NCBI GenBank assembly: GCA_030141605.1
Contig: JAQGDQ010000666.1
Coordinates: 1-64,000 of the forward strand
Source: Tubiluchus corallicola
Taxonomy: Eukaryota > Priapulida > Priapulimorpha > Priapulimorphida > Tubiluchidae
Reading direction: 5' to 3'
Length of the DNA stretch: 64,000 bases
Numbering within the stretch: position 1 is the first letter of the stretch; the number at the start of each line of letters is the position of its first letter. The notes beneath the pieces were generated by a model. That model saw only the letters and a list, made by a program, of their open reading frames with translations, had not been told where the DNA came from and did not search any database. The translations under genes and the position numbers were made by a program. This document shows positions 12,701 through 64,000 of this stretch, in pieces.

Positions 12701-15700
12701 CATACTGGGATGGTGGTGCAGTGCTGTTTCAGTAATGTGTTTTTGGTGAATCAGTGGTGCATACTGGGATGGTGATGCAGTGCTGTTTCAGTAATGTGTT
12801 TTTGGTGAATCAGTGGTGCATACTGGGATGGTGATGCAGTGCTGTTTCAGTAATGTGTTTTTGGTGAATCAGTGGTGCATACTGGGATGGTGATGCAGTG
12901 CTATTTCAGTAATGTGTTTTTGCTGAATCAGTGGTGCATACTGGGATGGTGATGCAGTGCTGTTTCAGTAATGTGTTTTTGGTGAATCGGTGGTGCATAC
13001 TGGGATGGTGATGCAGTGCTGTTTCAGTAATGTGTTTTTGGTGAATCAGTGGTGTATCATTTATGAAGCAAATGCGATTTTATTTAGACGAATATTTCAT
13101 TTCAGCTATGCAAAAGAATCCCGTGGGATCCGAATCTCGGACGCCCACCGCTACGTGGTCCGGTCTCGGCTTCTCCAAGTCCATGCCGGACGCCATCATT
13201 CGAGAACGATTAAAGGACAAGGGGAAGTACACCGGACCCAGCATGGCTACCACATACGAGGTGAGTGGTTGAAACTGGCCTGCTCGGAAACCAAATTCAA
13301 CAATGGCTTCTTGATCTAGTTGCCGTAATGTCAAAACTAATAACAAAGAAGCTTGTATTCGTTTCTTACAGAACTGTGCCAGCGATACGGAGAAAGACAA
13401 AGATCCGTGGAAAGATTCTCCAAACACGTCACCGTCGTCATCAATGAACGGTACACTAGGTGTCTCTGCTGCGCCGGGAGAGTTCCCGGCTAATCCTCTA
13501 CGCAGGCGAAATAAATGTAAGTGAAGGTTTGAGAACGTCTACTCACCTCACTAATTCGCGGCCTTTATCACCCCTCCTAACATGAGTGCTTTACCACCTT
13601 TATCACCCCTCTTAACTCGAGTGCTTTACCACCTTTATCACTCCTCGTAACTCGAGTGCTTTACCACCTTTATCACCCCTCGTAACTCGAGTGCTTTACC
13701 ACCTTTATCACCCCTCATAACACAATTGCTTTACCACCTTTATCACCCCTCGTAACTTGAGTGCTTTACCACCTTTATCATCCCTCGTAACTCGAGTGCT
13801 TTACCACCTTTATCACCCCTCATAACTCGAGTGCTTTACCACCTTTATCACCCCTCGTAACTCGAGTGTTTTACCACCTTTATCACCGCTCGTAACTCGA
13901 GTGCTTTACCACCTTTATCCCCCCTCATAACTTGAGTGCTTTACCACCTTTATCACCCCTCATAACTCGAGTGCTTTACCACCTTTATCACCCCTCATAA
14001 CTTGAGTGCTTTACCACCTTTATCACCCCTCATACTCGATTGCTTTACCACCTTTATCACCCCTCCTAACACGAGTGCTTTACCACCTTTATCACCCCTC
14101 GTAACTTGAGTGCTTTACCACCTTTATCACCCCTCATAACTCGATTGCTTTACCACCTTTATCACCCCTCATAACATGAGTGCTTTACCACCTTTATCAC
14201 CCCTCATAACATGAGTGCTTTATCACCCCTCATAACATGAGTGCTTTACCACCTTTATCACCCCTCATAACATGAGTGCTTTACCACCTTTACCACCCCT
14301 CGTAACTTGAGTGCTTTACCACCTTTATCACCCCTTGTAAGAAGAGTGCTTTACCACCTTTATCACCCCTCGTAACTCGAGTGCTTTACCACCTTTATCA
14401 CCCCTCGTAACTCGAGTGCTTTACCACCTTTATCACCCCTCGTAACTTAAGTGCTTTACCACTTTATCACCCCGCGTAAAATGAGTGCTTTACCACCTTT
14501 ATCACCCCTCGTAACTCGAGTGCTTTACCACCTTTATCACCACTTGTCATCTCATCACCTCAAAATGTCCTTGATCACTTCTACTCACTAAACATTTTTA
14601 TCACCGCTAGGCAGCTAATCATTCCATATTGCCTTTAAACATTTAATCACAGCTTTACCTAACTACTTCACCACTTTTACCATTTCTAGTCAGCTAACTT
14701 GTCCACCACCTTGTTGATCACTTGCTTCACTAACTTTATCATGTAGAGTTTGAAACTTTAGTCCTTCACGACAAATAGCATATAAATACATTTAATTTTA
14801 ATCGACTCATTTAAATCACAAGAAAACACTCTTCATAAATAAAGCTTGCAAAATTTTACGTGAAATTTGGTATCATGCACATCGTGACTTTGTGTTTGTG
14901 TTAACAATAATTTGTGTTTGGGTTTCTATGGTGACAAACAGACAAAGTCATCAAGTATTGCTTAGTATAATATTTCATTGTTCGTGCACCATCATCACAG
15001 CACATGACCCTTCGTCATTCTCATCCCCGCTTATATACTTGAATGTTCCCTTTTCTTCCCCTTTTAATAAACTATTAAATTGGAACGGCTTGCATGGAAC
15101 AACGAAGCCGTTTAAATAAACAAGTGCACATCCTAATCAAACATTACCGTACAATTGATGCTGATGAACTGATGAATTTTCTTCAAACAGACGAGTACAA
15201 CCTGAGCAGTAGTAACTACATCGACAGCGTGACCTTACCAAAGACGATGTGGACGGTGGAACGGACGAAAGAGGACCTGCCGGACCTCCTCAGCAAGCTG
15301 CAGTTGGGAAAATATACGGATCTCTTTCAACAACAGGAGGTACGTCTTCTTCGTTACGGTTCCCCTCGTGTGTTGCGTTGAAATGCGGTTCCTAGTTGCC
15401 ATGTTTTTCACCGTTTAAGACGCGTTTTTTTCTCGACTGCAAAAATCCAGCAGTACCACAGTACCTATACACGAGCTGCCACTGGCAAAGTATTCACTTA
15501 ACCCTTTCAGTCACAAATTATTTTTGTAATAAGAAAAAATTTTTGGCTTGGTACTTTTGTTCAGTATGTCCATCTTGTTTACACATAATAATTATTTTTT
15601 CTACCTGTGCCCGCGTGCTAAATATAGCCTGTATCCCACGGGATACATTGGGATTCAATGGAAGCTTCATTTTGCAACTGCTGATAATTTTTTAAAGTAT

Positions 15701-18266
15701 GTAAGACATTTAGTATGCATGCTATGCTGATCTGTACAAAGTCGTCTCTAAAGTACTGTACCTTGCGCAGTTTTTTATGCTATGTAGATTTTCTAGTTTG
15801 CCATTTTATCACCATTTTTAGTCTATTGTTATTGGCTTAAATCAAAATAACTATTAACAGATCAAATAACTGTCAGTTTTAAAATTTTATTTATTGTAAA
15901 AGCAGAAAATATTCTCGTATCCCACGGGATACAACGGGTATGAAAGGGTTAAGACTTCTGTCATGTCCTAGACATGTATAAATATGAGTATTTTCCACTT
16001 TAAAAACAAGCATTGTACAGTCAACCCTCATTAAACCGGACTAATTGGGGGGGGGGGGGGTCCGGTTTAGCCGATTGTCCGATTTATCTGATATGCCTAT
16101 ATATGGTCTATATTACACAGGAATAATCACCTTAATAAGGCCTATATACTGTGTACTATATACTATACTGTATATTACTTTAAAATAGTTAACCTGTGAG
16201 GATAAAGAAATTATTGTACAGTTGGTAGGCCATGTTGTGTTTAGCACTCGGGCTCGGACGGAAATCGGTCAGTTTCCTTTACCACGGATGACGTCCGTCT
16301 TATCCTATATCCGGGCTAACGGGGTCCGGTTTAACGAGGGTCGACTGTACTATTTTATATGACAATGAAAGTTTATAGAAGTCGTCGTATACAGGTACTA
16401 TGAAAATTTTTTCATTACAGTAAACAACAAAATGTTCTTAGGCCGGCCTAACTAAGGCCTAAATTGCTTCTTCTTTTTTTAAAGATGGGAATACATTTAA
16501 TACCCCATTGCATCTTTTATGGCAAAAAATATGACAACTTTTGTTTTTGAAATACTACGTTTATGTTTACTGTGTGTTTGTACTACTGCGCCTACTGCGT
16601 GGCATGGTGTGGCACAACTGGAACCTAGCTCATTATCACGGCTATACCTTTGTGACGGGGCACCGAACCAGCAAGGGTGTCTTAGCCATGTTCTAATGTG
16701 AATAAGTGCCTTTAATAAACTAGCAGAATTAACGTGATGGTGGACTGAACTGCCCAGAATGGTATCAAGCCTGGCCAGGTTGGTCGGCCATCCGTTTGCT
16801 GTCGAGTCTTAGCTTTGCTTAACTTCAGTTGCTAAGCACACTCGGTAACCATTCGACTCTGCTCTAATGTTCATTTTTTCATTATTGTTAACGTTCAGGC
16901 CGTTCATCAAACAGTTTCACTTTGACCCCTCTCATTTTTTTATGGTTTTTAGATTGACCTCGCAACGTTTATGACGCTAAGTGACCTTGACCTGAAGGAG
17001 TTGGGAATCTCGACCTTTGGCGCCCGCAGGAAGATGCTGCTAGCCATTTCTGGTTCGTTTTGAATTATTTGTGTTTAAGTCGTATTTTTAATTGCTCTTT
17101 CTGCCTGTAGATGGCAGCAAAGTTACTCTAGCCAAGTGTTCTAACGTAGACAATCAGAGTATGGAGTCAGCACTAGTTATTTTAGTGTAAGTGTAATTTA
17201 TGCAATTATGAATAAATGTTTAGTTGCCTTTCAGTTAAATAAAAATGCAAAAGATTGTCTACTTGCTTGACTCCTGCAGGACTGCACCACTCAAAATAGG
17301 ACTTATAAGACCAATAACTTTTCTGCTACTGTATGAGGACAGACATAATTAAATGATTACAAATTAGGGACTGTTCTATTCAGGAGAATATCGGTTATCG
17401 AATCATTCTATTTGTTTAAACATTTTTAGCTAATTTAATTGGGTAAAATTAAGAAAAACACGCCCTTTTCAGGCACTCCAACTTACCCTATTGAGTAGCT
17501 TAGTCTGGTGTACACTTGCGTGATCGTACACACTATTTTATTGATCACCTACTTGCTACAGCCCAAGAGAATTGTTGTTATATAGAATTCCAGGAAACAC
17601 CAAGCGGTCAGCCAACGACAAATTGAGGTCGTTTCATCTTTTAACTGAAATTTCTTCTTAAAAGTAGAGTAGACTTGAGGCCAAAGTGTACTAGGGTCTA
17701 GACAGTTGAACATTAGCCGATTTTGCACAAGTGATACTGTACATTGTCACAGTGTAAACACCGCAGTTGCTGAAGGGTTTTATTCATTTTTTTCATCAAA
17801 AATCGATTTTTAATTTGTCTAAGGTAAGCATATGCAATTCATGTATAATTTTGCATGAAAGTCCATTGTGTGATGGGGTAGAAACTTCAAAAATTTTCAA
17901 ATATAATGTAATTGTTGCATAGTGAGAGCAGTTTTTCATGAACCCGTGCAAAATGCAGCAAATGCTTACCGTCCTGAAAGAGTTAAGAATATCACTAATA
18001 TCATTAAAAATAGAAAAGATTTCTAAGTTGTGAAATATGTTGTTATTTTTCCATAGTATCTTCTTTTATCTTAGCGATTAATTATTGCATATGCAGAAAT
18101 GTCGAAACGGAAGCAGCCTCTCTCTCCGGTCGTCGGAGATGGCCGACCCATGGCTCCCTCGTGTGGCAGCATCGGACAGCAGGATCCGTCCCAGTCTCTG
18201 CTGACGACCGCCAACAGCTTGTCTCCACCCAGTGCGATGTCGACGACGACGAATAAAATATGGTAG
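3766..18266 (+). CDS. BICC1: Bicaudal-C family RNA-binding protein, 3' portion (ten exons, 496 codons)
   Basis: Post-transcriptional regulator with N-terminal KH domains that bind mRNA and a C-terminal SAM domain that polymerises into cytoplasmic foci (family knowledge). Exons: 3766-3934, 5861-5989, 6557-6697, 8730-8973, 11818-11906, 13106-13260, 13372-13516, 15191-15339, 16953-17052, 18097-18266. All introns are GT-AG, the phases join without a break and the total is 1491 bp, ending in TAG at 18264-18266. Exon 1 opens inside a KH domain (SVIIKTSERNAAALYDAR). A Pro/Ser-rich linker follows, then the family block TPTATWSGLGFSKSMP (exon 6), LSSSNYIDS (exon 8) and the SAM domain split over exons 8-9 (EDLPDLLSKL...FQQQE / IDLATFMTL...FGARRKMLLAIS). 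The KH-coding 5' exons were not found in the window and presumably lie upstream. Long introns carry arrays and MITEs. Confidence 0.95.
4057..4570. mobile_element. MITE, CAGGGATGAGAAT family, copy 1
   Basis: 514-bp element starting CAGGGATGAGAAT and ending in its reverse complement ATTCTCATCCCTG. It is flanked by 6-bp direct repeats TAATTG (4051-4056 and 4571-4576). The interior matches copies at 10926-11419 and, inverted, 33727-34194. No transposase is encoded. It lies in Bicaudal-C intron 1. Confidence 0.85.
4835..5645. repeat. Three adjacent copies of a dispersed repeat with a TTGATGACATCACA motif
   Basis: Blocks containing GATGATTTTTCATAT, TTAATTA..GGCGGGCGAGCCCAAC and TGATGACATCACAAACTA occur at about 4840-5110, 5150-5365 and 5370-5640. 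The same family recurs at 22004-22330 and 35822-36330. No coding potential is seen; it is probably a non-autonomous transposon whose ends I could not fix. Confidence 0.6.
6065..6360 (+). repeat. Diverged copy of the SINE-like body found at 12190-12470
   Basis: Shared phrases in order include TTATTG..ACAGAGCTTGC-like sequence, AAAAAATAATCAGAGCAT, ACTTTA..ATATTGTC and GGTGAATCAGTGGTGCA. It lacks the tRNA-like head seen at 12100 and appears 5'-truncated. Confidence 0.5.
6950..8545. repeat. Tandem array of alternating 88/86-bp units
   Basis: About 18 units, each starting AAATAAACTTGAATTGAC and containing TTTCCCCTATCAACCACC. Two subtypes alternate: A (TATTGCTTACTGG...GCGCAGTTGG) and B (TGTTGTTTAGTGG...GCGGGTTGTTT), giving a dimer of about 174 bp. 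One aberrant unit lies near 7318-7376. The phrase ATTCATGTGTTTGCAAA occurs at both edges (near 6939 and 8552). It lies in Bicaudal-C intron 3. Confidence 0.95.
9553..9692. repeat. 26-bp minisatellite, about five copies
   Basis: The unit GGGAGTGACTACATTTTGAG preceded by TTGAAA repeats about five times with almost no divergence, in Bicaudal-C intron 4. Confidence 0.9.
9763..10537. mobile_element. Probable MITE with GTTACCGAA ends
   Basis: The left end reads GGGTGTTACCGAAAC and the right end reads TTCGGTAACATCCC, its near reverse complement. Subterminal sequence is rich in GAAACCGAAA-type repeats. Exact termini and a target duplication were not resolved, and no coding region is seen. Confidence 0.5.
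10926..11419. mobile_element. MITE, CAGGGATGAGAAT family, copy 2
   Basis: 494 bp, same terminal inverted repeats and interior as copy 1, flanked by 6-bp duplications CAGACT (10920-10925 and 11420-11425). It lies in Bicaudal-C intron 4. Confidence 0.85.
12100..12430 (+). mobile_element. tRNA-derived SINE
   Basis: The head near 12104-12170 resembles a tRNA. Box A is TAGTCTAGTGG, which fits TRGYNNARNNG; the phrase GACTTGGTAATC resembles a threonine-type anticodon arm; box B is GGTTCAGGTCC, one mismatch from consensus. The stems are not intact, so this is not a functional tRNA gene. The body continues to about 12430 and is shared with 6065-6360. Confidence 0.65.
12431..13056. repeat. 59-bp tandem array at the 3' end of the SINE
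   Basis: About ten to eleven near-identical 59-bp units containing TTTCAGTAATGTGTTTTTGG and GTGGTGCATACTGGGATGG. The repeated sequence matches the end of the SINE-like body (also single-copy near 6330), so the array seems to have grown from the SINE tail. It ends about 50 bp before Bicaudal-C exon 6. Confidence 0.92.
13558..14548. repeat. 35-bp tandem array
   Basis: About 28 copies of a 35-bp unit of the form ACCACCTTTATCACCCCTCG followed by TAACTCGAGTGCTTT. It starts about 40 bp after the donor of Bicaudal-C exon 7. Variants are dispersed, with occasional shortened units (near 14215-14235). The strand is strongly pyrimidine-rich. Confidence 0.95.
15498..15952. mobile_element. piggyBac-type MITE (TTAA), copy 1
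   Basis: Bounded by TTAA on both sides, with ends TTAACCCTTTCA and TGAAAGGGTTAA. The near-palindrome GTATCCCACGGGATAC occurs twice, at 15631-15646 and next to the right end at 15917-15932. Four more copies are at 31580, 37374, 50425 and 61143. TTAA targets and CCCTTT ends are typical of piggyBac-type elements. Confidence 0.85.
16018..16347. mobile_element. pogo/Tigger-type MITE
   Basis: 330 bp between TA dinucleotides (16016-16017 and 16348-16349). The ends CAGTCAACCCTCATTAAACC and GGTTTAACGAGGGTCGACTG are inverted repeats with few mismatches. A poly-G run follows the left end. There is no open frame. It lies in Bicaudal-C intron 8. Confidence 0.8.
16640..16870 (-). repeat. Dispersed tRNA-like/SINE-like repeat, copy 2
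   Basis: Shares GAACCAGCA, GGTGTCTTAgCCAT and AGTTGCTAAGCA blocks, in order, with 3480-3705. More diverged than a recent insertion. Confidence 0.35.
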
Positions 18267-24167: not shown

Positions 24168-39607
<15,440 letters not shown>

Positions 39608-41554: not shown

Positions 41555-42785
41555 AAGAAACTGTTTATTATGCACTAGTCTACCCCAAAAGCAATATAGT
41601 ATCCTGGCTTGCAGAAGAGCAGCTAATTAAACATTGGAACCAGTCATTACTGCACAGAACAAAATTGTTAAATTAATGAATTTCTCCTTGATTCATACAC
41701 ATTCAATGCCAGCATATAAAGGTTTACATAATTTATACTAAAAATACATGACGTTTATATTGAATCTAAATGTGAACCTAGTACATGAATCTGAATCTGA
41801 TATACCCTAGATTAGTGCTTACCACGCATCACTGAAACAAAATGAATTACATAAACGTAGTACGTAATTTATTATAATGGTTATATTTATGACATTACAC
41901 CAATGTGAATGTATACTACAATATAAGTATGGCAGTAAAAGTTTTACATTAATTTACAATATACTGGACAACAGAATAATAGACATTACGAAGTTTTGTA
42001 TCAACATGTGAACACGTGTCCAGAGGATACATTAACATGATTTAAATACTGTGACAAAGCTGTCAGTTTCATTAACATAATTCAAATACTGTCTCAGAGC
42101 TGTCAATTTCACAATACATTCTTTAATTATCAGCATTAATTTCAGACAAACCGTTGCCTTTAACAAACGGCTACTTTTTCTAGCCAAAATGAATATGCTT
42201 ATTTTTTCAACCTAACACTAACCTCATGAATGGAACCTAAGCTACAACATCAATTGACTGTTCGTTTGTCAGTCAGTCAGCAAGCTAAGCAGCCAGTTAC
42301 ACATTTTGTTGACCAGCGAGCCAGCCAACCAATCATTTAATCAGTAAGTCGGAGAGTCGGTCATTCACTCCATTAGCCAATCAATTTGTTCACTAGTCAA
42401 CAGGCATCTATGCTAGTCTGTTTGCTCTTTCATTCAAATAATCTGTGACTAACTGATTAACAGCTAGCCTGTTTTATTGGTTGACCCATTACCGAAGCAA
42501 AACATTCAACTTGTTGTCTGCCTCTTTTACAACAGTCGACAGTCACAATTACAAGTTCATTCATTGATGAAATGCAACTTGAACTAAATGCTCTGTTTAC
42601 AATAAAATGATGCAATTATAATATATCCATTTCCTGATACACGTATTGCTGACTGTCGTGTTCATGTGGTGTGAATACCCATGTGCCCGACATGGTGATC
42701 CCGACAAGAAAATGGTTTGTCACATAAAGTCAAATTTGTAGGGTTTTACTCCAGTATGAGTGTTCATGTGCTTGCGAAGATGACG
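41553..42785. other. Zinc-finger unit A 3' flank; degenerate finger remnants only
   Basis: Immediately past the stop of unit A (minus strand) are decayed finger remnants: MNTHTG-like sequence near 42760, and GTCGGGCACATGGGTATTCA near 42690. The rest is AT-rich with no gene recognised. Confidence 0.5.
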
Positions 42786-44531
42786 TCACTGAAAAAATGA
42801 TTTGTCATATAAGTCACATTTGTGGGGTTTCATTCCAGTATGAGTGTTCATGTGCGTGAGAAGATGATCTTGCCGAGAAAATGATTTGCTACATAAGTCA
42901 CATTTGTGTGGTTTCTCTCCAGTATGGATGTTCATGTGACGGAGAAGATTACCTCGCACAGAAAATGATTTGTTGCATAACTCACATTTATGTGGTTTCA
43001 TTCCAGTATGAGTGTTCATGTGACAGAGAAGACTACTTCGATGAGAAAACGATTTGTTGCATAAGTCACACTTGTGCCGTTTCATTCCAGTATGAGTGTT
43101 CATGTGCGTGAGAAGACTACTTCGATGAGAAAATGACTTGTCACATAACTCACATTTGTGGGGTTTTATTCCAGTATGGGTGTTCATGTGCATGAAAAGA
43201 TTGCCTCGCTGAGAAAATGATTTGTCACATAAGTCACATTTGTGCGGTTTCTCTCCAGTATGGATGTTCATGTGACATAGAAGACTACCTCGCTGAGAAA
43301 ATGATTTGTTGCATAACTCACATTTGTGCGGTTTTTCTCCAGTGTGGATGTTCTTGTGACGGAAAAGACTACCTCGCTCAGAAAATGCTTTGTTGCATAA
43401 CTCACATTTGTGGGGTTTCATTCCAGTATGAGTGTTCATGTGACAGAGAAGACTACTTCGATGAGAAAATGATTTGTCACATAAGTCACATTTGTGTGGT
43501 TTTTCTCCAGTATGGATGTTCATGTGACATAGAAGACTACCTTGCTGAGAAAATGATTTGTTGCATAACTCACATTTGTGGGGTTTCATTCCAGTATGAG
43601 TGTTCATGTGCCTGAGAAGATGACCTCGCTCAGAAAATGATTTGTTACATAAGTCACATTTGTGGGGTTTCATTCCACTATGAGTGTTCATGTGACTGAG
43701 AAGACTACTTCGATGAGAAAATGATTTGTTGCATAAGTCACATTTGTGGGGTTTTATTCCAGTATGGGTGTTCATGTGCACGAGAAGATTACCTCGCCGA
43801 GAAAATGATTTGTCACATAAGTCACATTTGTGCGGTTTCTCTCCAGTATGGATGTTCATGTGACAGAGAAGACTGCCTCGCTCAGAAAATGACTTGTCAC
43901 ATAACTCACATTTGTGGGGTTTTATTCCAGTATGGGTGTTCATGTGACAGAGAAGACTACCTCGCTGAGAAAATGATTTGTCACATAAGTCACATTTGTG
44001 GGGTTTCAATCCAGTATGAGTGTTCATGTGCCTGAGAAGACTACCTCGCTGAGAAAATGATTTGTTGCATAACTCACATTTGTGGGGTTTCATTCCAGTA
44101 TGGGTGTTCATGTGACTGAGAAGATGACCTCGCTGAGAAAATGATTTGTCACATAAGTCACATTTGTGGGGTTTCAATCCAGTATGGGTGTTCATGTGAC
44201 TGAGAAGACTACTTCGATGAGAAAATGATTTGTTGCATAAGTCACATTTGTGGGGTTTTATTCCAGTATGGGTGTTCATGTGCACGAGAAGATTACCTCG
44301 CCGAGAAAATGATTTGTCACATAAGTCACATTTGTGCGGTTTCTCTCCAGTATGGATGTTCATGTGACAGAGAAGACTGCCTCGCTCAGAAAATGACTTG
44401 TCACATAACTCACATTTGTGGGGTTTTATTCCAGTATGGGTGTTCATGTGACTGAGAAGATGACCTCGCTGAGAAAATGATTTGTCACATAAGCCACACT
44501 TGTGCGGTTTCATTCCAGTATGGGTGTTCAT
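42786..44531 (-). CDS. C2H2 zinc-finger protein, unit A (20 fingers)
   Basis: A 581-aa open frame of 20 consecutive C2H2 fingers (CxxC-x12-HxxxH) on an exact 28-residue period, plus a degenerate last finger (CDLYDKSF, with Cys lost). Probable nuclear DNA-binding protein. Most linkers are TG(M/I/L)KP; canonical TGEKP occurs in a minority. No KRAB, SCAN, ZAD or BTB domain is visible. Fingers 2-4 and 8-10 are identical, showing an internal six-finger (504-bp) duplication. The first ATG lies in a finger linker, and an in-frame TAG (44574-44576) sits 15 codons upstream inside the preceding finger. The true start may therefore be spliced on from an upstream exon, or the N-terminus is lost. Status as an expressed gene is uncertain. 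Confidence 0.75.
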   Translation of the reverse strand: MNTHTGMKPHKCGLCDKSFSQRGHLLSHMNTHTGIKPHKCELCDKSFSERGSLLCHMNIHTGEKPHKCDLCDKSFSRRGNLLVHMNTHTGIKPHKCDLCNKSFSHRSSLLSHMNTHTGLKPHKCDLCDKSFSQRGHLLSHMNTHTGMKPHKCELCNKSFSQRGSLLRHMNTHTGLKPHKCDLCDKSFSQRGSLLCHMNTHTGIKPHKCELCDKSFSERGSLLCHMNIHTGEKPHKCDLCDKSFSRRGNLLVHMNTHTGIKPHKCDLCNKSFSHRSSLLSHMNTHSGMKPHKCDLCNKSFSERGHLLRHMNTHTGMKPHKCELCNKSFSQQGSLLCHMNIHTGEKPHKCDLCDKSFSHRSSLLCHMNTHTGMKPHKCELCNKAFSERGSLFRHKNIHTGEKPHKCELCNKSFSQRGSLLCHMNIHTGEKPHKCDLCDKSFSQRGNLFMHMNTHTGIKPHKCELCDKSFSHRSSLLTHMNTHTGMKRHKCDLCNKSFSHRSSLLCHMNTHTGMKPHKCELCNKSFSVRGNLLRHMNIHTGEKPHKCDLCSKSFSRQDHLLTHMNTHTGMKPHKCDLYDKSFFQ

Positions 44532-44574
44532 GTGCCTGAGAAGACTACCTCGATGAGAAAATGATTTGTTGCAC

Positions 44575-45060
44575 TAGTCACATCTGTGAGAGTTCATTCA
44601 TGTGTAATGTTCGCGTGTTTACAAAGACTACATTGATGGTAAAAGTATTGATTGCACTGGCCACAGCTGTATGCTTTCAGTTTGTTTTTCCATAACTGCA
44701 AAACTGGTTTTTCTAAGAGTGTAGATTGCAGTTGCAAGACTACAGTTCATGTGCAGGCAGAAACACCTATATAGAAGATAAAGCAAAACTAAAATGTGTA
44801 GTTAATAATTCAATATCCATTCAGCGTTTTAAGACTACGTAAGTGGTTTGTAATTTAAGAAAACAATCAACACAAACATTCGTTTACTGATGCTGAAAGC
44901 CCCAAATTAATGAACATCACAGTGGTAAATAGTGGTAGTGATAATGCAGTTTATAAGATTAATATTAAGAAAAAATAAGAACGCTGTTGATGACAAAAAT
45001 GAGATACATTTTTGTAAAGTATTTTAAGTAATTGCTGTTTTGCAATTTTGCTGAAGAAAC
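44575..45060. repeat. Segmental duplication, flank of unit A
   Basis: Near-identical to about 47170-47650 (GTGTTTACAAAGACTA, GCTGTATGCTTTCAGTTTGT, ATCAACACAAACATTCGTTT and so on). It shows that finger units A and B plus upstream flank arose by tandem duplication. On the minus strand the proximal part retains a decayed finger-like CGQCNQYF. Confidence 0.9.
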
Positions 45061-45550
45061 ACTAAGCAGAACGAATGCGAATGACTACAAGGTAGCTTAT
45101 GATTCTTTTAAAAAGTGACAAATTTCAGAAAAAGCTGGCATCGATAATAAAATAAACAGAAATTGTTGTTAAAGAGATACTAAACTGTAAAGTAACAAAT
45201 GCTCAGAACATTTTCTGTGTCTTGTCAAAACGATTACATCAAAAATTCCCTTTAAATCATTTCACAATGCTGCTCAGCTCAGAAGCATTGTGAAATGTTT
45301 TATGCACAGAGGGGGCAAAGGATGTAGATACCCCTACCTCCTGTTTCCCTAACCTTCAGCTAGGAACCTCGGGGTGATATTTTCTGCTTTCAAGGCACTT
45401 TAAAGATTTAAACTGAGATCTAAATTGGACTGCATTTGTTTTCAAAAAATGCCAAAAAAGCCCAAACTTCATTGAAAATGATTTGTTGCACAAGTCACAT
45501 TTGTGGGGTTTTATTCCAGTATGGATGTTCATGTGGCAGAGAAGACTACC
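45061..45550. other. Spacer between zinc-finger units; one finger remnant
   Basis: No gene in 45061-45470. At 45470-45550 (minus strand) a further in-frame finger (GSLLCHMNIHTG then HKCDLCNKSFS) follows the unit B stop and then ends abruptly. Confidence 0.6.
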
Positions 45551-47044
45551 TCACTGATAAAATGATTTGTCATATAAGTCACATTTGTGGGGTTTCATTC
45601 CAGTATGAGTGTTCATGTGCGTGAGAAGATTATCTCGCCGAGAAAATAATTTGTCACATAACTCACAAGTGTGGCATTTCATTCCTGTGTGAGTGTTCAT
45701 GTGCCTGAGAAAATTGCCTCGCTCAGAAAAGGATTTGTCACATAACTCACACTTGTAGGGCTTCGTTCCAGTATGAGTATTTATGTGCATGAGAAGATTA
45801 CCTTGCTCAGAAAATGATTTGTTGCATAAGGCACATTTGTTGGGTTTCATTCCAGTATGGGTGTTCATGTGCCTGAGAAGTTGACCTTGCAGAGAAAATG
45901 ATTTGTCACATAACTCACATTTGTGGGGTTTCATTCCAGTATGAGTGTTCATGTGCCTGGGAAGACTACCTCGATGAGATTTTGATTTGTTACATAAATC
46001 ACATTTGTGTTGTTTCATTCCAGTATGAGTGTTCATGTGACTGAGAAGACTACTTCGATGAGAAAATGACTTATCACATAACTCACATTTGTGGGGTTTT
46101 ATTCCAGTATGGGTGTTCATGTGCATGAAAAGATTGCCTCGCTGAGAAAATGATTTGTCACATAAGTCACATTTGTGCGGTTTCTCTCCAGTATGGCTGT
46201 TCATGTGAGTAAGAAGACTACCTCGCTCAGAAAATGACTTGTCACATAACTCACATTTGTGGGGTTTTATTCCAGTATGGGTGTTCATGTGACTGAGAAG
46301 ATTACCTCGCCGAGAAAATGATTTGTCACATAACTCACATTTGTGGGGTTTCATTCCAGTATGAGTGTTTATGTGCATGAGAAGACTACCTCACTGAGAA
46401 AATGATTTGTTGCATAAGTCACATTTGTGGGGTTTCATTCCAGTATGAGTATTCATGTGAGTGAGAAGATTGCCTCGCTGAGAAAATGATTTGTCGCATA
46501 AGTCACATTTGTGGGGTTTTTCTCCAGTATGAGAGTTCATGTGACGGAGAAGACTACCTCGATGAGAAAATGATTTGTTGCATAAGACACATTTGTGCGG
46601 TTTCATTCCAGTATGGATATTCATGTGACGGAGAAGACCACCTCGCTTAGAAAATGATTTGTCACACAAGTCACATTTGTGGGGTTTCATTCCTGTGTGA
46701 GTGTTCATGTGACTGAGAAGATGACCTCGCTGAGAAAATGATTTGTCACATAAGTCACATTTGTGTGGTTTCTCTCCAGTATGGATGTTCATGTGACGGA
46801 AAAGACTACCTCGCTCAGAAAATGATTTGTTGCATAACTCACATTTGTGGGGTTTCATTCCAGTATGAGTGTTCATGTGACAGAGAAGACTACTTCGATG
46901 AGAAAATAATTTGTTGCAAAAGTCACACTTGTGCAGTTTCATTCCAGTATGGGTGTTCATGTGCGTGAGAAGATTACCTCGCTGAGAAAATGATTTGTCA
47001 CATAACTCACATTTGTGGGGTTTCATTTCAGTATGAGTGTTCAT
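45551..47044 (-). pseudogene. C2H2 zinc-finger unit B, interrupted by an in-frame TGA
   Basis: Two same-frame open segments, 47044-46391 (seven fingers) and 46378-45551 (nine fingers), are separated by one TGA at 46391-46393. Sister fingers have CGA (the Arg of SFSQRG), a C-to-T change at a CpG. Just upstream, another finger is damaged (TCA to TGA at 47075-47077, and a zinc-ligand His replaced by Val). Unit B ends in CDLYDKSFYQ followed by TGA, as unit A does with CDLYDKSFFQ, so that end predates the duplication. It could still be expressed as a shorter protein from either segment; decay is more likely. Confidence 0.7.
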
Positions 47045-47169
47045 GACACAGGGAAGACTACCTCGATGAGAAAATCATTTGTTGCATAAGTCACATTTGC
47101 GGGGTTTCATTCCAGTATGGGTGTTCATGTGCCTGAGAAGATTACTGTGCCAAGAAAACAAGTTGATGC

Positions 47170-50424: not shown

Positions 50425-50889
50425 TTAACCCTTTCAGTCCCGAATTATTTTTTAGTAAGAAAAATTGTTTTGGCTTGGTACTTTTGTTCAGTATGTCCAT
50501 CTTCGTTACACATAATAATTATTTTTTTCTACCTGTGCCCGCGTGCTAAATATAGCCTGTATCCCACGGGATGCACTGGGATTCAATGGAAGCATAAAAT
50601 GTGCTTCATTTTGCAACTGCTGATAATTTTTTAAAGTATTTAAGACATTTAGTATGCATGCTATGCTGATCTGTACAAAGTCGTATCTAAAGTACTGTAC
50701 TTTGCGCAGTTTTTATGCTATGTAGATTTTCTAGTTTGCCATTTTATCACCATTTTAGTCTCTTGTTATTGGCTTAAATCAAAATAACTATTAACAGATC
50801 AAATAACTGTCAGTTTTAAATTTTTATTAATTTTAAAGGCAGAAAATATTCTCGTATCCCACGGGATACAACGGGTATGAAAGGGTTAA
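50425..50889. mobile_element. piggyBac-type MITE (TTAA), copy 4
   Basis: 465 bp including TTAA ends, same interior; the first near-palindrome reads GTATCCCACGGGATGC. Confidence 0.85.
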
Positions 50890-51222
50890 ACTAGCAAAAT
50901 GTGCTAAACTATTACTACTCAGAACGAAGAAACTTACCTTCATGCAACTGACGTCGTATTGTATGTAGCGTACGTTCAGAACAATTCTAACACGAGTTTT
51001 AATCGTAACAGTTACTAGTACAAGCTGCTTCTGTCATAAACTGCTGCTCTGTGAGGACAGTGTCAGTCTGGCCTTCAGCGTCCTGTCCGAGAATGTGGAT
51101 TTACTACCTGCTAAAGTCATTGATTAGTCAGGTAAAGTGCCCGAGGGAAGGTGAAATACCTGCATGTGTGATTGTCTGAAAATCATTGCGCCATTTGCTG
51201 ATACTGCAGCGAGGACAAAACA

Positions 51223-57415: not shown

Positions 57416-59329
57416 TCAGGTTCCCATTTTATGACGCCTCTGCAAGACAATCGTGTAGGTTAGGATGCATAAGATGCCAAACAAAACTATTGCAAATGCC
57501 GTGAGTATAAGAACCTCGTTCATGCTGTTACTAGTCATTGAATCATCATGCAGTGCCTCTATCCATCCTTCAATTCTTTCTACTATTGTGGCCAATACTT
57601 CAACTGCACTGCACAAGTCCTTTTCATTGATTTGCACATTTCCATCTATGCAGGCAAGAACAACAAAACTGTACTTTCCCAAGTGCAAATTTTTTAACAT
57701 ATCCGTGCCCGTAATGACGCCGATTCCCTGCCGTTGAGATTTAATCACAAAGAAGTCACGCATAGTAAGTATTCGAAACTTAACAACATCTGCAGGTGTT
57801 GCCATGACTGCAACCTCCTCTTCGTCCTCGGAGACATTTTGCGCAAATGTGAAATCATAAAAGTCTTGTGAGAACTTTGGATTCTCGTTAATTTCTTTCA
57901 AAACGGTCACCTCAATATCAGCCTCCCTCACCCCATCCGCATTTGAAGCCACTGCAGCAAATTTTTGAATTCCTGGAGTCAGTCTTTTGGTGGTTTTTAT
58001 TATACCATAGCCGTCCACTGTAAACTCACTTACTGATTCGCCAGTCTTCGTCTTCAGACTATAAGAAAACTCCGGGATGTTTGTCCGGGATACATCTTCG
58101 GCTTGGACGACCAATACGCTCCGTCCTACCGGAAGACTTTCCACAACTGTAGCTTTGTACAATATTTGAGTAAATCCAGGGGGTGGTCCTTGAATTTGCA
58201 CTTCAATATGTATGCCTGTCATTGCAGTGTAGTACTCGGGTTCGCCATCCTTCACGTAAGCGGCTCTGACCGGCAGGAAATACTCACGTTCTGTTATCTT
58301 TCCTATTATTTTTATATCCCCTACACTTTCCTCTGGCGTTTCTTTATTGTCTGCATTGACAAATTTAAAAGGTTTACTACTAACTTCCAGGCTGTATCTT
58401 ATGTGTTCATCACTTTTTCCCGATTCGCCGTCGACGGCAGAAATTCTGTTTGGCTTGACATTTATTATCGTCCCTACTGGGTCATTGTCTTTTATAGTGG
58501 CGTAATACATTTCTGCATCAAATACAGGATTGAAATGGACATCTGCTACATCGAAAGTGAATACATGTGTGCCTTCATTTGGAATAACGCCTGCATCACG
58601 CATCGTAACTGTGACATTATACTGCGACTGCTGCTCATAATCTACTTCCTTGCGCAAGAAAATGTCACAATTCTTGGTACCATTTCTTGCTTTTGCTTCA
58701 AACTTGGAATTACTGTCCTTGATGAAACACGTTGAATAAATATTGTAGGGAGCAGTCAGATCGTCATCTAGCACTCTAAAACTTGCTAACATTGTTCCAA
58801 TCTCAGCTTTTTCCGAAACGTAACAGCTATCAGGCGTTTCTGGTGCTGCTCTTGGTGGGTGTTCGTTCATTGATTTTATAGTAACATTCATATTAATATC
58901 AAATTTTTCCTGTGGACGGGAGACTGATTTGCATTTTATTTTTATTACCCAGTTTAAGATGGGTGGGTCACCTTGAGTGCTGAGATAGTCTGGTATAGAC
59001 CTTTTAGTTCGTAAACTGAATGCGTATTTGTTATTTGCTGAGTTTCCCAAAGTGAACAGATGGCCTTGGTCTGACTTTAATCTGAATGTTACATGTTCGT
59101 AAGTGAGACCAGGTTGTTTACCAAAGAACAGAGTAAAGCTTCTGTTAGGCACACGATTGTCCCTAACTTTCCAATAATACTGCGATTTCATTACCTGATC
59201 ACACCGACTTAAATCTATTGTTGAAGTCAAGACTACAAAACTAAGAAAAATTATCGTGGTAAGTACAATATTGTGCAAAGTGCTAGCCACAGCTTTGCCA
59301 GTGAAAATATGGCAAACATGATCAGACAT
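57416..59329 (-). CDS. Cadherin-repeat transmembrane protein, intronless
   Basis: One uninterrupted 637-aa frame. Residues 17-40 are hydrophobic (IVLTTIIFLSFVVLTS), a likely signal peptide or anchor. About four to five cadherin-type repeats follow (roughly 45-155, 165-268, 270-380, 383-482, 484-580). Evidence is the boundary phrases MNEHPP, DVHFNPVFD and INENPKFS and the DYEQQSQYNVTVTMRDAG strand. Several canonical Ca-binding DxNDN motifs are degenerate. A transmembrane helix lies at about 605-628, then a tail of about nine residues (ending RRHKMGT) with no catenin-binding region. Probably a cell-surface adhesion or recognition protein; the exact family is not known to me. Lack of introns suggests a single large exon or a retrocopy. 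Confidence 0.8.
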   Translation of the reverse strand: MSDHVCHIFTGKAVASTLHNIVLTTIIFLSFVVLTSTIDLSRCDQVMKSQYYWKVRDNRVPNRSFTLFFGKQPGLTYEHVTFRLKSDQGHLFTLGNSANNKYAFSLRTKRSIPDYLSTQGDPPILNWVIKIKCKSVSRPQEKFDINMNVTIKSMNEHPPRAAPETPDSCYVSEKAEIGTMLASFRVLDDDLTAPYNIYSTCFIKDSNSKFEAKARNGTKNCDIFLRKEVDYEQQSQYNVTVTMRDAGVIPNEGTHVFTFDVADVHFNPVFDAEMYYATIKDNDPVGTIINVKPNRISAVDGESGKSDEHIRYSLEVSSKPFKFVNADNKETPEESVGDIKIIGKITEREYFLPVRAAYVKDGEPEYYTAMTGIHIEVQIQGPPPGFTQILYKATVVESLPVGRSVLVVQAEDVSRTNIPEFSYSLKTKTGESVSEFTVDGYGIIKTTKRLTPGIQKFAAVASNADGVREADIEVTVLKEINENPKFSQDFYDFTFAQNVSEDEEEVAVMATPADVVKFRILTMRDFFVIKSQRQGIGVITGTDMLKNLHLGKYSFVVLACIDGNVQINEKDLCSAVEVLATIVERIEGWIEALHDDSMTSNSMNEVLILTAFAIVLFGILCILTYTIVLQRRHKMGT

Positions 59330-60314
59330 GACCGTGTCAAATCATCAGTTCACTGTCTGCTACGAATTCGACAACTGCTCAAATTATAAAATCTGCACCT
59401 TCTTGCGATATCCTCCTTTTCCTCTTTTCAAATTGTCCTCCAAATTTGTGCTTTCTTTAAGCTAGCGAGGCACACGTTCCATTCCTGCCCAAGCGCCTCG
59501 CATTCTAAAGATTTTACAATTTTGATTTCCAATTCAATCATACAAATAGAATGATCAGGACACAGATAATTGGCAACAATGGAACAATGTCTGCCTTTCG
59601 ACCCATTGTCTTTTCTTCAATGGCAGGAAGTTATAATTAATCACGACAACTTGCCCCTAAGAATGTATGATTGCATTTGAAAAAGAAATTCTGAACTTCT
59701 AATAAGATTTTTTTTAATAAAAATATATTTAAATAGAAATATTAATTTCATTATATTGTTATTCACATATTGAGCACATTATTTCTCAGGCCATTAGAAG
59801 CAATTGGAATGATAAAATGCTGCATTTCATTACATAGTGCATAAGTTATTATACTTCCATAACCACATTATGTTATTTTAAAAGAATAGTTTAGAAAGAA
59901 CTCGGTAGAGATGTATTAGTCGGGCTTTGATATTCAACCTGGACTATGTTTTGGATATAAGCACGTGGTGCCTCCTGGTGTTTGTTTTCCCAAGTTTAGA
60001 CAGGTGAGCTAGGACCGGAAATAGGCCATTGGCCTCATTTCACAGTTAAGATATGAAAGTAGTGAGTCACCGGTATGCGGCAAAGATGTAAGTTTCATTT
60101 CTTCACAGTTTGTCATGTCATATTATTGTTAATTATCATTATACCAGTTACTTAATGTTTTGACGTTGGTTTAGCAGAAAGAATTTTTAATTTTTCTTCA
60201 GATAAAACGAAGTCGAACGCATGTCGCGTACAGTTTTATATCTTAGTCCGTGTGCCTAGACGAGACGGCCATATTGCTTTCGAGAACAGAACACCTGAAC
60301 AAGGCTAGTACAGC
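59330..60314. other. Upstream region of the cadherin-like gene; nothing specific recognised
   Basis: AT-rich; probably contains the cadherin-like gene's 5' UTR and promoter on the minus strand. No core element can be assigned. Confidence 0.4.
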
Positions 60315-60503: not shown

Positions 60504-61142
60504 GTTATAGTTGTGCCGATGTTGTTGGATTTTTTAAAATCACTTTGATTTACGATAACATCATTCTCCTATCTAGCAAACAGTGGCTCCATTTGGCGGT
60601 GAAATTATGACAAGAAACGCAAAAGTTATCTTCAGTTATATGGCCCGATTTTGCTAATACGATCAATGTTGACAAATATTTGTTTTTGGCACGGCAAATT
60701 GTTTGTAACCTAACAAATAAGTATTTTGTAAACAGTTACAGAATTTTGTTTTTATAAAATTCGTTTGTTATCTTTATTATCAATGTTAGTGTGTTGAATG
60801 TGTGTATGAAGTTGGGTTTTATGCGAACACTAATACGTTAATACATTTATCTTTTGTTTCCTGGGAGGTAGTCAAACACGTTTAAACCGTATCTATGATT
60901 CTATCAAAAATTACCATTAAGGGAGTAGAGTAAGACGCCATTAAATTCTTAAGCAGGCAGCAATTTTGATAGGAAAATTATGTGAGAAGTTATTCGGCGT
61001 CTCGTTGCAAAATGAAATTGGAGTAGGTGGAGCAGTGAGGAAGATGCAGCCCAGTTGGTCTGCCATTGAAATAACCTTTGCTCACTTAATACAGTCATTA
61101 TTATTCCTGCAAGCGCCCAGTGAAATGCACGTGTTTTACAGC
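60504..61142. other. No gene recognised
   Basis: AT-rich spacer with short open frames only. Confidence 0.5.
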
Positions 61143-61562
61143 TTAACCCTTTCATACCCGTTGTATCCCGTGGGATACGAGAATATTTTCTGCCTTTAAA
61201 ATTAATAAAATTTTGATTTAAGCCAATAACAATAGACTAAAATGGTGATAAAATGGCAAACTAGAAAATCTACATAGCATAAAAAAACTGCGCAAGGTAC
61301 AGTACTTTAGAGACGACTTTGTACAGATCAGCATAGCATGCATACTAAATGTCTTACATACTTTAAAAAATTATCAGCAGTTGCAAAATGAAGCTTCCAT
61401 TGAATCCCAATGTATCCCGTGGGATACAGGCTATATTTAGCACGCGGGCACAGGTAGAAAAAAATAATTATTATATGTAAACAAGATGGACATACTGAAC
61501 AAAAGTACCAAGCCAAAATTTTTTTTCTTATTAAAAAAATAATTTGGGACTGAAAGGGTTAA
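61143..61562. mobile_element. piggyBac-type MITE (TTAA), copy 5, inverted, internally deleted
   Basis: 420 bp including TTAA ends, opposite orientation to the other four. It lacks about 37 bp present in the others (the AACTATTAACAGATCAAATA region), with short AAAAT-type microhomology at the breakpoint. Confidence 0.85.
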
Positions 61563-61728
61563 AGCAAACATCATTTAAACTCCCAGCCTGGCAACCTCAT
61601 TTTACACCACGTTTGACTTTTGGCTCACACTGTTTTATTTATTTTTGGCAGTGTATATAGGTGAATGTTTTTACACCACGTCTTGTTTTGTAATAATCAG
61701 GTGTTATCGATGTATATGTTAACAGTTA

Positions 61729-61914
61729 ATGAAAGTCCACTTCTTCGCCAAAGCCTGCCGACACCTGGAGGAAAGATCCACATGGATTATTCACATTCCA
61801 ATTGTTTCCTTCCTTAAGAACCCAACAATGGAAAATCTTCATGGATCCGCGTATGCAAAAGTCAACCATACGATCATATTTGCTCAACTTTTACACAGCA
61901 AACACTTGAAATAA
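61729..61914 (+). pseudogene. Decayed SDR exon (catalytic-region fragment)
   Basis: An open stretch ends in GSAYAKVNHTIIFAQLLHSK. The pattern resembles the active-site segment of RDH-like SDRs (Y-x-x-S-K-L-A-N-x-x-F-A-x-x-L). The invariant Lys of YxxxK is Asn here, so it would not be catalytic. It lies 1.6 kb upstream of the SDR gene on the same strand, which suggests a relic of a duplicated SDR copy. The match is short. Confidence 0.4.
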
Positions 61915-62250
61915 CTCATTAAAGAGCCCTTGTGCAAACTGCACACCACACCTATAACACACGTCGCTTTCCATTATTATTATTATTGCAAAATTTTCCA
62001 AGGGTATCCACCACGCAAGACTGAAAACGTATGTTATTTGCAAAATGATTACTCTATATTACAAGTTGCGTGAATAAACGCGTTACGTGGTGTGATTTAT
62101 CAGGTAGACGCATAGCACGGAAGTATCTGCACCGATTGCACTTGAAAATGACAATAATGATAGCGATTGTTGTAATGGTATGGTAAAGCGGTAGAACCGC
62201 AAACCTGTGTCAAGAGAACTTGTTTTTGAAACGATTCAGGATATGTAAAA

Positions 62251-63540
62251 TCCTATGCCGGAACAACCAGATTGAACTAACATGTCTGTGAAGTTGGCAA
62301 TATTAACATGATCATCGTGTCATCTCTGATAGCATTTTTACTGTACGGTACATATGCTCTGATAACGATCTATGCTGGAACAACTAGATTGAACTAACAT
62401 GTCTGTGAAGTTCGCAATATTAACATGATCATCGTGTCATCTCTGGTAGCATTTTTACTGTACTGTACATATGCTCTGATAACGATCTATGCTGGAACTA
62501 CTAGATTGAACTAACATGTCTGTGAAGTTCGCAATATTAACATGATCATCGTGTCATCTCTGGTAGCATTTTTACTGTACTGTACATATGCTCTGATAAC
62601 GATCTATGCTGGAACTACTAGATTGAACTAACATGTCTGTGAAGTTCGCAATATTAACATGATCATCGTGTCATCTCTGGTAGCATTTTTACTGTACTGT
62701 ACATATGCTCTGATAACGATCTATGCTGGAACTACTAGATTGAACTAACATGTCTGTGAAGTTCGCAATATTAACATGATCATCGTGTCATCTCTGGTAG
62801 CATTTTTACTGTACTGTACATATGCTCTGATAACGATCTATGCTGGAACTACTAGATTGAACTAACATGTCTGTGAAGTTCGCAATATTAACATGATCAT
62901 CGTGTCATCTCTGGTAGCATTTTTACTGTACTGTACATATGCTCTGATAACGATCTATGCTGGAACTACTAGATTGAACTAACATGTCTGTGAAGTTCGC
63001 AATATTAACATGATCATCGTGTCATCTCTGGTAGCATTTTTACTGTACTGTACATATGCTCTGATAACGATCTATGCTGGAACAACTAGATTGAACTAAC
63101 ATGTCTGTGAAGTTCGCAATATTAACATGATCATCGTGTCATCTCTGGTAGCATTTTTACTGTACTGTACATATGTTCTGATAACGACCTATTCTGGAAC
63201 AACTAGATTGAACTAACATGTCTGTGAAGTTCGCAATATTAACATGATGATCGTGTCATCTCTGCTAGCATTTTTACTGTACTGTACATATGCTCTGATA
63301 ACGACCTATTCTGGAACAACTAGATTGAACTAACATGTCTGTGAAGTTCGCAATATTAACATGATGATCGTGTCATCTCTGCTAGCATTTTTACTGTACT
63401 GTACATATGCTCTGATAACGATCTATGCTGGAACAACTACATTGAACTAACATGTCTGTGAAGTTGGCAATATTAACATGATGATTGTGTCATCTCTGCT
63501 AGCATTTTTACTGTACTGTACATATGCTCTGATAACGATT
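62251..63540 (+). repeat. 117-bp tandem array, 11 copies, made from the SDR start region
   Basis: The CATGTCTGTGAAG landmark recurs every 117 bp: 62281, 62398, 62515, 62632, 62749, 62866, 62983, 63100, 63217, 63334, 63451. Each unit holds a nine-codon ORF (MSVKFAILT, then TGA). That TGA overlaps the ATG of a second ORF beginning MIIVSSLVAFLLYCTYALIT and closed by TAA just before the next unit's CATG. The last unit's second ORF continues into the SDR. Units 3-7 are almost identical (CTACTAG variant), while units 9-11 share other variants (TCTGCTAGC), as expected of unequal exchange. Confidence 0.95.
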
Positions 63541-64000
63541 TATATTTGCTTAAAGGTGATTAGCAAAGTTACACAACAGAATAAAAAAAGGTGGGTGTCA
63601 AGGGACATGACCGGAAGAGTTATCCTGATAACCGGTGCCAGTTCCGGCATAGGCTATGCAGCTGCACAAGAGCTGGCCAGAAAGAGGGCAAAGCTCATAA
63701 TGGTTTGTTGGAACAAGGAACCAAACTTGACAGAATTGGTGGAGGAAGTGAGAAAAGCATCCGGTAACGAGGAGGTTTATCTGCAAAAAGTTGACCTGAG
63801 CAAGCCCAAGTCTGTCCGGAAGCTGGCCAAAATCATCCTGGAAGGAGAAAACAGGTTAGATGTTTTGATAAATAATGCCGGCGGTGTGTCCGTCAATGGT
63901 TCCAGCAAAGTGCATTGTGGGATCGGCTATTGTTACGCCACAAACTTCTTTGGACATTTTCTCTTGACAAATTTGCTGCTTCCATTGCTGATGCAGACGC
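63478..64000 (+). CDS. Membrane-anchored short-chain dehydrogenase/reductase, RDH-like, partial
   Basis: Open from ATG 63478 to the window edge (174 codons). Residues 1-28 form a hydrophobic anchor (MMIVSSLLAFLLYCTYALIT) followed by a basic stretch (NKKRW). The Rossmann fold starts at about residue 45: MTGRVILITGASSGIG (cofactor-binding TGxxxGxG), then a D-L-S segment, INNAGG (NNAG motif) and NFFGHFLLTNLLLP. The order and the anchor resemble retinol-dehydrogenase 11-14-type NAD(P)(H) SDRs of the ER or mitochondria; the substrate is unknown. After the first strand the sequence reads VCWNKE where RDH-type enzymes usually carry CR, so cofactor choice is unclear. The catalytic YxxxK lies beyond the window. 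ATG 63478 is chosen because it adds the anchor; a second Met follows immediately. Confidence 0.88.
   Translation, partial: MMIVSSLLAFLLYCTYALITIYICLKVISKVTQQNKKRWVSRDMTGRVILITGASSGIGYAAAQELARKRAKLIMVCWNKEPNLTELVEEVRKASGNEEVYLQKVDLSKPKSVRKLAKIILEGENRLDVLINNAGGVSVNGSSKVHCGIGYCYATNFFGHFLLTNLLLPLLMQT

Follow-up and report, generated by a model that had tools for sequence, protein, structure and literature searches.

The SDR gene and the array at its start codon

The window, i.e., the whole stretch of 64,000 nucleotides analyzed from contig JAQGDQ010000666.1 (C119) of Tubiluchus corallicola, ends inside an intact, intron-free frame coding for an SDR enzyme, and the start codon of this frame lies in the last unit of a tandem array (Table 1). 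The classical SDR motifs are TGxxxGxG, NNAG and YxxxK, and the full-length frame carries them as TGASSGIG at residue 52, NNAG at residue 132 and YCNAK at residue 209 of 333. The in-window part of the frame was recognized as Pfam adh_short (E 1.4e-22), and the best sequence matches among solved structures are SDR enzymes. Ahead of the Rossmann fold the N-terminus is hydrophobic, with a 19-residue mean hydropathy of up to 2.23, and the codons contributed by copy 11 encode part of this anchor; motifs and anchor both fit a classical SDR of the RDH/HSD17B-like kind. Since the frame is intact, the gene is presumably expressed.

Table 1. Positions of the array, its copies and neighboring features, and copy numbers of the 28-bp arrays at other loci of the assembly.
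Feature	Position	Strand	Basis or remark
117-bp tandem array, 11.0 copies	62253..63543	+	TRF, unit alignment, variable sites
Copy 1, most upstream	62253..62369	+	G at unit position 44 common only to copies 1 and 11
Copies 3-7	62487..63071	+	mutually identical, recent expansion block; distance matrix
Copies 9-10	63189..63422	+	one difference apart; ATGATG and GCTAGC common to copies 9, 10 and 11
Copy 11, functional	63423..63539	+	supplies SDR ATG and about the first 21 codons
9-codon uORF of copy 11	63452..63481	+	TGA overlaps SDR ATG (ATGA at 63478-63481)
SDR frame, 333 codons and stop, 1,002 bases	63478..64479 (C119; past window end at 64000)	+	intact, intron-free
Dispersed MITE-like element	61142..61562	+	690 bp upstream of the array, not part of it
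28-bp array, 50.9 copies	C1867
28-bp array, 50.9 copies	C1181
28-bp array, 36.3 copies	C1921		cut by contig end
28-bp array, 33.5 copies	C1312

The position of the start codon was compared with that in related proteins. The nearest intact paralogue found, at C2125:16834-17835, is likewise a single open frame of 333 codons, is 44% identical over residues 17-172 and opens with MM and a hydrophobic stretch. The local protein match begins only at residue 17, and the comparison of the anchors relies on a global alignment of low identity, in which the start of the paralogue falls within two residues of that of the window SDR; as the anchor is poorly conserved, the paralogue backs the length of the N-terminus more than its letters. 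A similar length fit was obtained with HSD17B13 chains, which may carry tags: chain position 12 aligns to residue 16 of the window SDR. The lengths of the paralogue and of HSD17B13 thus support the ATG at 63478 or 63481 as the probable true start of the SDR. No tandem array was detected near the paralogue in the 7 kb read. Its leader contains a minimal uORF, ATGTAA, which abuts its own ATGATG start, a stop-start contact of another make.

TRF described the array with a period of 117, 98% matches, 0% indels and a score of 2407, and a chance product is excluded. Its head-to-tail units of tens to about a hundred bases are those of a minisatellite, and each comprises 55 bp of leader and 62 bp of SDR 5' coding sequence. 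The preliminary description, in which eleven 117-bp copies were claimed, the last one being the SDR start with its anchor codons and the other ten truncated decoys, was borne out in all these respects: TRF counted 11.0 copies, copy 11 provides ATGATG at 63478/63481, and only copy 11 joins the intact SDR frame. A search with the array sequence through the window's own assembly (343.5 Mb, 2344 contigs) recovered a single 117-bp array locus. Exact matches of a 22-base piece of the unit were absent from the prokaryote and viral collections, and Rfam at gathering scores returned 0 matches in the window.

Most units contain four ATG-started frames, with lengths of 6 codons (at unit position 3; missing from copies 9 and 10), 9 codons, 29 codons (the anchor frame, to which copies 9 and 10 add an extra ATG) and 2 codons (at unit position 102). 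Two ORFs per unit had been described earlier; both are present, but the 6-codon and 2-codon frames had been missed. The overlap of the TGA of the 9-codon ORF with the following ATG (ATGA), claimed for each unit, was found in all 11 copies, and hence the uORF stop overlaps the main start, the contact looked for as a mark of reinitiation. In copies 1-10 the 29-aa anchor mini-ORF closes with TAA one nucleotide ahead of the next 9-codon ORF, in agreement with the earlier account, which had however placed this stop before the next unit: with the units phased as by TRF, the mini-ORF closes 28 bp inside the following copy. Ahead of 63478 the array contains 42 ATGs, 23 of them with a purine at -3. Comparable overlaps, defined as an in-frame ATG at most 40 codons upstream with no stop between and ending at the TGA in question, occur at 119 of the 604 ATGA sites in the window (both strands, outside large arrays), a control that is looser than a 9-codon uORF. 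Given this background, the ATGA overlap may be one chance arrangement that was passively copied eleven times.

Variation among the copies

In the alignment of the copies, 12 of 117 positions are variable, and the outermost copies 1 and 11 are the most distant from the consensus, with five differences each. The preliminary description had read the copy variants as a mark of unequal exchange, and their order is as expected from such a process: the summed differences between neighboring copies amount to 18, as compared to a mean of 36.2 for shuffled orders, and a value this low was reached in 0 of 20,000 shuffles. This pattern is the usual picture of within-array expansion with older edges. The variable sites are distributed over the leader (6 of 55) and the coding part (6 of 62), five of the six coding sites alter the amino acid (133 of the 180 possible changes would do so), and the probability that variation spares all 10 start and stop bases is 0.32. 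There is no sign of constraint on the array copies, though 12 sites are few. Short likenesses at the edges (ATCCTATG upstream, ATCTATG between copies and ATTTATA downstream) fit a slippage origin but are too short as proof.

The exact copy number is uncertain, since five identical copies spanning 585 bp are present in a single assembly. Reads from copies 3-7 could be misplaced and the copies miscounted; nevertheless, that the copy number was inflated or altogether invented by the assembly is hardly credible, as the 12 variable sites follow a coherent order and both edges of the array have diverged.

Broken relatives of the SDR start and a second array

The whole-assembly search with the array detected the SDR start at four further loci, C1867, C1181, C1921 and C1312. 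At the first three about 185 bp of the SDR 5' end are left, with stops present, and the alignment of the C1867 fragment to the SDR shows deletions; at C1312 only 51 bp of the SDR are left. Likeness between the first two loci is 99.2% over 18 kb, and for C1921 it is about 97% over 11 kb, which indicates that the three are recent duplicates or haplotypes. C1312, about 89% alike over 3 kb, is older, and the four fragments form two diverged groups. An origin of the fragments as retrocopies was rejected because the 5' end is kept and the 3' end lost.

In all four fragments the likeness to the window SDR starts at TTAACATG, five bases before the ATG, and directly ahead of it lies a different array, with a unit of 28 bp. 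When the junction was used as query, in a search that passes over simple repeats and very frequent words, these four loci alone came up with the 28-bp array (5 candidates, all scored). The 28-bp unit itself has no ATG, and 6 to 21 ATGs occur in the stretches of up to 1.4 kb before the fragments. Comparison of the 28-bp unit with the 117-bp leader revealed no likeness above that of shuffled sequences (P of 0.15, 0.24, 0.32 and 0.31), and against random window stretches the values were 0.05, which is borderline, and 0.08 in two scorings; a distant kinship is possible. Moreover, a dimeric structure of the 117-bp leader was not visible (P 0.89). Arrays of at least 500 bp were found within about 1.5 kb on each side of 0 of 26 other SDR loci. 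These are the 30 loci of 34 matches minus the window gene and three fragments (four matches, one of them array copy 10, were left out of the locus count); minus-strand loci were left unturned, and only the strand-free array result is used.

As the duplicates are not independent, the cases of an array at the SDR start are two and not five. One and the same SDR start codon thus adjoins a large array in two lineages, and the units of the two arrays differ: either a fragment landed beside a 28-bp array, or arrays arose twice at one spot. The latter may be taken further, the start codon of this SDR lineage being a recurrent birthplace of unrelated arrays at the same few bases (117-bp in the intact gene, 28-bp in its broken relatives), perhaps via transcription initiation or open, nicked promoter DNA, with the copies as stacked starts. 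We regard this as a tentative idea of low probability; still, arrays at the start codon in two settings exceed what a plain accident predicts.

In the course of these searches, a genome-common element was seen at C119:64507-64920, beginning 27 bases past the SDR stop codon, and a relative of it abuts the 51-bp SDR fragment at C1312. In the nucleotide search with the SDR body and its 3' flank 40 of 3,587 candidates were scored; as the search was swamped by the common element, further DNA copies of the SDR body are possible. The SDR match in the region C1761:505884-506192 adjoins a bacterial-looking frame, which we take to resemble bacterial FabD, and the assembly may hold bacterial contigs.

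Readings of the array

The array, the intact frame, the support for its start codon and the pattern of variants are direct observations, and we consider it probable, at roughly 60%, that they reflect a minisatellite at a gene start, which slippage or unequal exchange would have enlarged, the mini-ORFs being passengers and the mRNA mostly containing none of the array or only its last copies. Following this, we propose that the array began as a tandem duplication of a 117-bp stretch that spans the SDR start codon, which slippage or unequal exchange later extended to eleven copies. The SDR would have been kept whole, the last copy joining leader, ATG and anchor codons to the body, and the ten upstream copies would have been left ahead of it without encoding enzyme. 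The nested mini-ORFs would then be passengers of the duplication and no selected device, and productive SDR mRNA would start within or after the last one or two copies, or the array would be spliced away; if copy number had an effect, this would come mainly through the upstream DNA, by spacing or promoter copies. We infer this order of events, as well as the transcription start site, the expression of the SDR and the absence of a selected function. The retention of the 9-codon ORF and ATGA in 11 copies and of TAA in copies 1-10 could also be explained by selection.

It had been proposed that ten coupled start/stop cassettes in a translated leader tune SDR translation by copy number, and this we now regard as very unlikely. 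The constant anatomy, with TAA one nucleotide before the next ATG in copies 1-10, agrees with such a device, and the C2125 paralogue likewise has a stop right at its start codon. According to PMC5972666, stop-start overlaps are known in the cellular mRNAs of GAD and SLAMF1, and in Drosophila short uORFs of strong start context are followed, with the help of DENR-MCT-1, by reinitiation regardless of distance. However, the same source states that reinitiation after short uORFs typically needs distance or time and that the viral coupled kind needs a TURBS (PMC5972666), and the 18S-complementary UGGGA core of the latter occurs 0 times on either strand of the array. RNA folding of four stretches gave a stability no greater than that of shuffles (z of -0.45 to 0.54), comparable coupling is common in the window, and the 28-bp unit before the SDR fragments, having no ATG, offers no start/stop chain. 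Furthermore, of the ribosomes scanning past the 23 AUGs that have a purine at -3, about 1 in 8 million would get through at a leak of 50%, 0.6% at 80% and 9% at 90%, figures which are an illustration and not a measurement and which assume a transcript from upstream retaining the whole array. Scanning through all copies would thus be very inefficient, although reinitiation could alter this estimate, and the simplest way to square it with an intact frame is a productive mRNA that probably begins in the last copies or beyond them, or is spliced.

Where the transcript begins is also the subject of two readings which we consider unlikely but not negligible. In the one, the units are tandem promoters, each with a putative start site, the copies being additive or giving alternative transcripts in the manner of mouse L1 monomers, which provide a precedent (PMC9022269). 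A promoter originally placed upstream of the unit would, after the duplication, be some 1.2 kb away from the real ATG, so a working gene may need a start near copy 11, and any element within the unit would occur in every copy. On the other hand, the plus strand of the array contains no exact TATA[AT]A[AG] or TCA[GT]T[CT], and in copies 2-11 it is SDR-derived coding sequence that lies directly upstream of the leader. The single TATA match within 61500-63480 on the plus strand, at 61654, is far upstream of the array; the missing TATA and initiator consensus is nonetheless little proof against promoter activity. A bacterial-type promoter scan gave 9 matches as compared to 9.2 expected, with a model that is not meaningful for animal DNA. 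In the other reading, to which we give slightly less credence, the array is removed from the mRNA via a 5'UTR intron or trans-splicing and is thus unseen by the ribosome. Scored with generic weight matrices, 61661, 62104 and 62178 upstream of the array are donor-like (97.6th, 96.5th and 96.9th percentile of 4,022 GT sites), and 63503, at unit position 81, is acceptor-like (93.5th percentile of 3,508 AG sites). Yet use of the latter would remove anchor codons that are backed by the paralogue N-terminus and the HSD17B13 length, from 63400 to the ATG there is a single AG, at 63464, which scores weakly (40th percentile), and splice-site scoring revealed no convincing acceptor just ahead of the SDR ATG. 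The best donor-like site of the region, 63556 (AAG/GTGATTA, 98.4th percentile), lies within the SDR frame, 16 bases past copy 11; the frame is open across it, and splicing out of the array does not explain it. This site is close to the position of the 21-base deletion in the C1867 fragment.

It is known that repeats close to the start of a gene can change its expression, and one example is TYMS, with a unit of about 28 bp that is not known to contain start codon or coding sequence. The TYMS VNTR and the 117-bp array have in common that an enzyme gene carries tandem repeats at its 5' end; the former, an enhancer region, modulates expression of human thymidylate synthase and its unit carries USF1 sites (PMC7712088). 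Of the two, it is the TYMS VNTR for which an effect on expression is documented. The 5'UTR monomers of mouse L1 are likewise tandem units before a first ORF; their number varies between copies (PMC9022269, PMC6454616), they act as promoters in reporters and a tether separates them from ORF1 (PMC9022269). By contrast, the 117-bp unit contains the ORF start, and promoter activity is a feature of the L1 monomers. In SLAMF1, GAD and the calicivirus TURBS, a uORF stop overlaps the main start as in the window SDR; UGAUG with a putative TURBS-like core is described for SLAMF1 and GAD and a proven core for caliciviruses (PMC5972666). The window SDR differs from these in its ATGA, its chained repeats and the core not being found. 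Among literature titles and abstract openings, a search of limited reach, no tandem array of a gene's own start codon was found.

The array is best filed as a minisatellite, in a variant whose unit contains the start codon of a gene. Besides the 117-bp array and an array coding for zinc fingers, the window contains four non-coding arrays of at least 500 bp, which cover 4,170 bp (6.5%), and in a window so rich in such repeats one array at a gene start is not astonishing. The other minisatellites of the window have units of 26 to 174 bp; the 117-bp array differs from them in that its unit includes start codon and anchor codons. What makes the case more than ordinary is that this codon adjoins another array in the broken SDR relatives. 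An array unit with a start codon is a natural series of decoy starts: if transcripts cross the array, the number of upstream starts that a ribosome can get past could readily be tested on it, and if they avoid it, it illustrates how a gene can exist with its own start present eleven times. Where minisatellites are born is a testable question raised by the unrelated array found at this codon in the relatives.

Several further features of the window were recorded. The MITE-like element upstream of the array has further copies near 15498-15953, 31580-32046, 37374-37836 and 50425-50892, five in all, of about 420-470 bp; its ends are TTAACCCTTTCA...TGAAAGGGTTAA, and it resembles a piggyBac-type MITE. 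The zinc-finger array, at 42707-47145 on the minus strand, is made up of about 53 units of 84 bp in head-to-tail order; they encode C2H2 zinc fingers and lie in three long open frames of 227-595 aa. At 57416-59341, also on the minus strand and divergent to the SDR, lies an open frame of 641 aa, in which Pfam recognizes one cadherin domain and which has a hydrophobic stretch towards its C-terminus.
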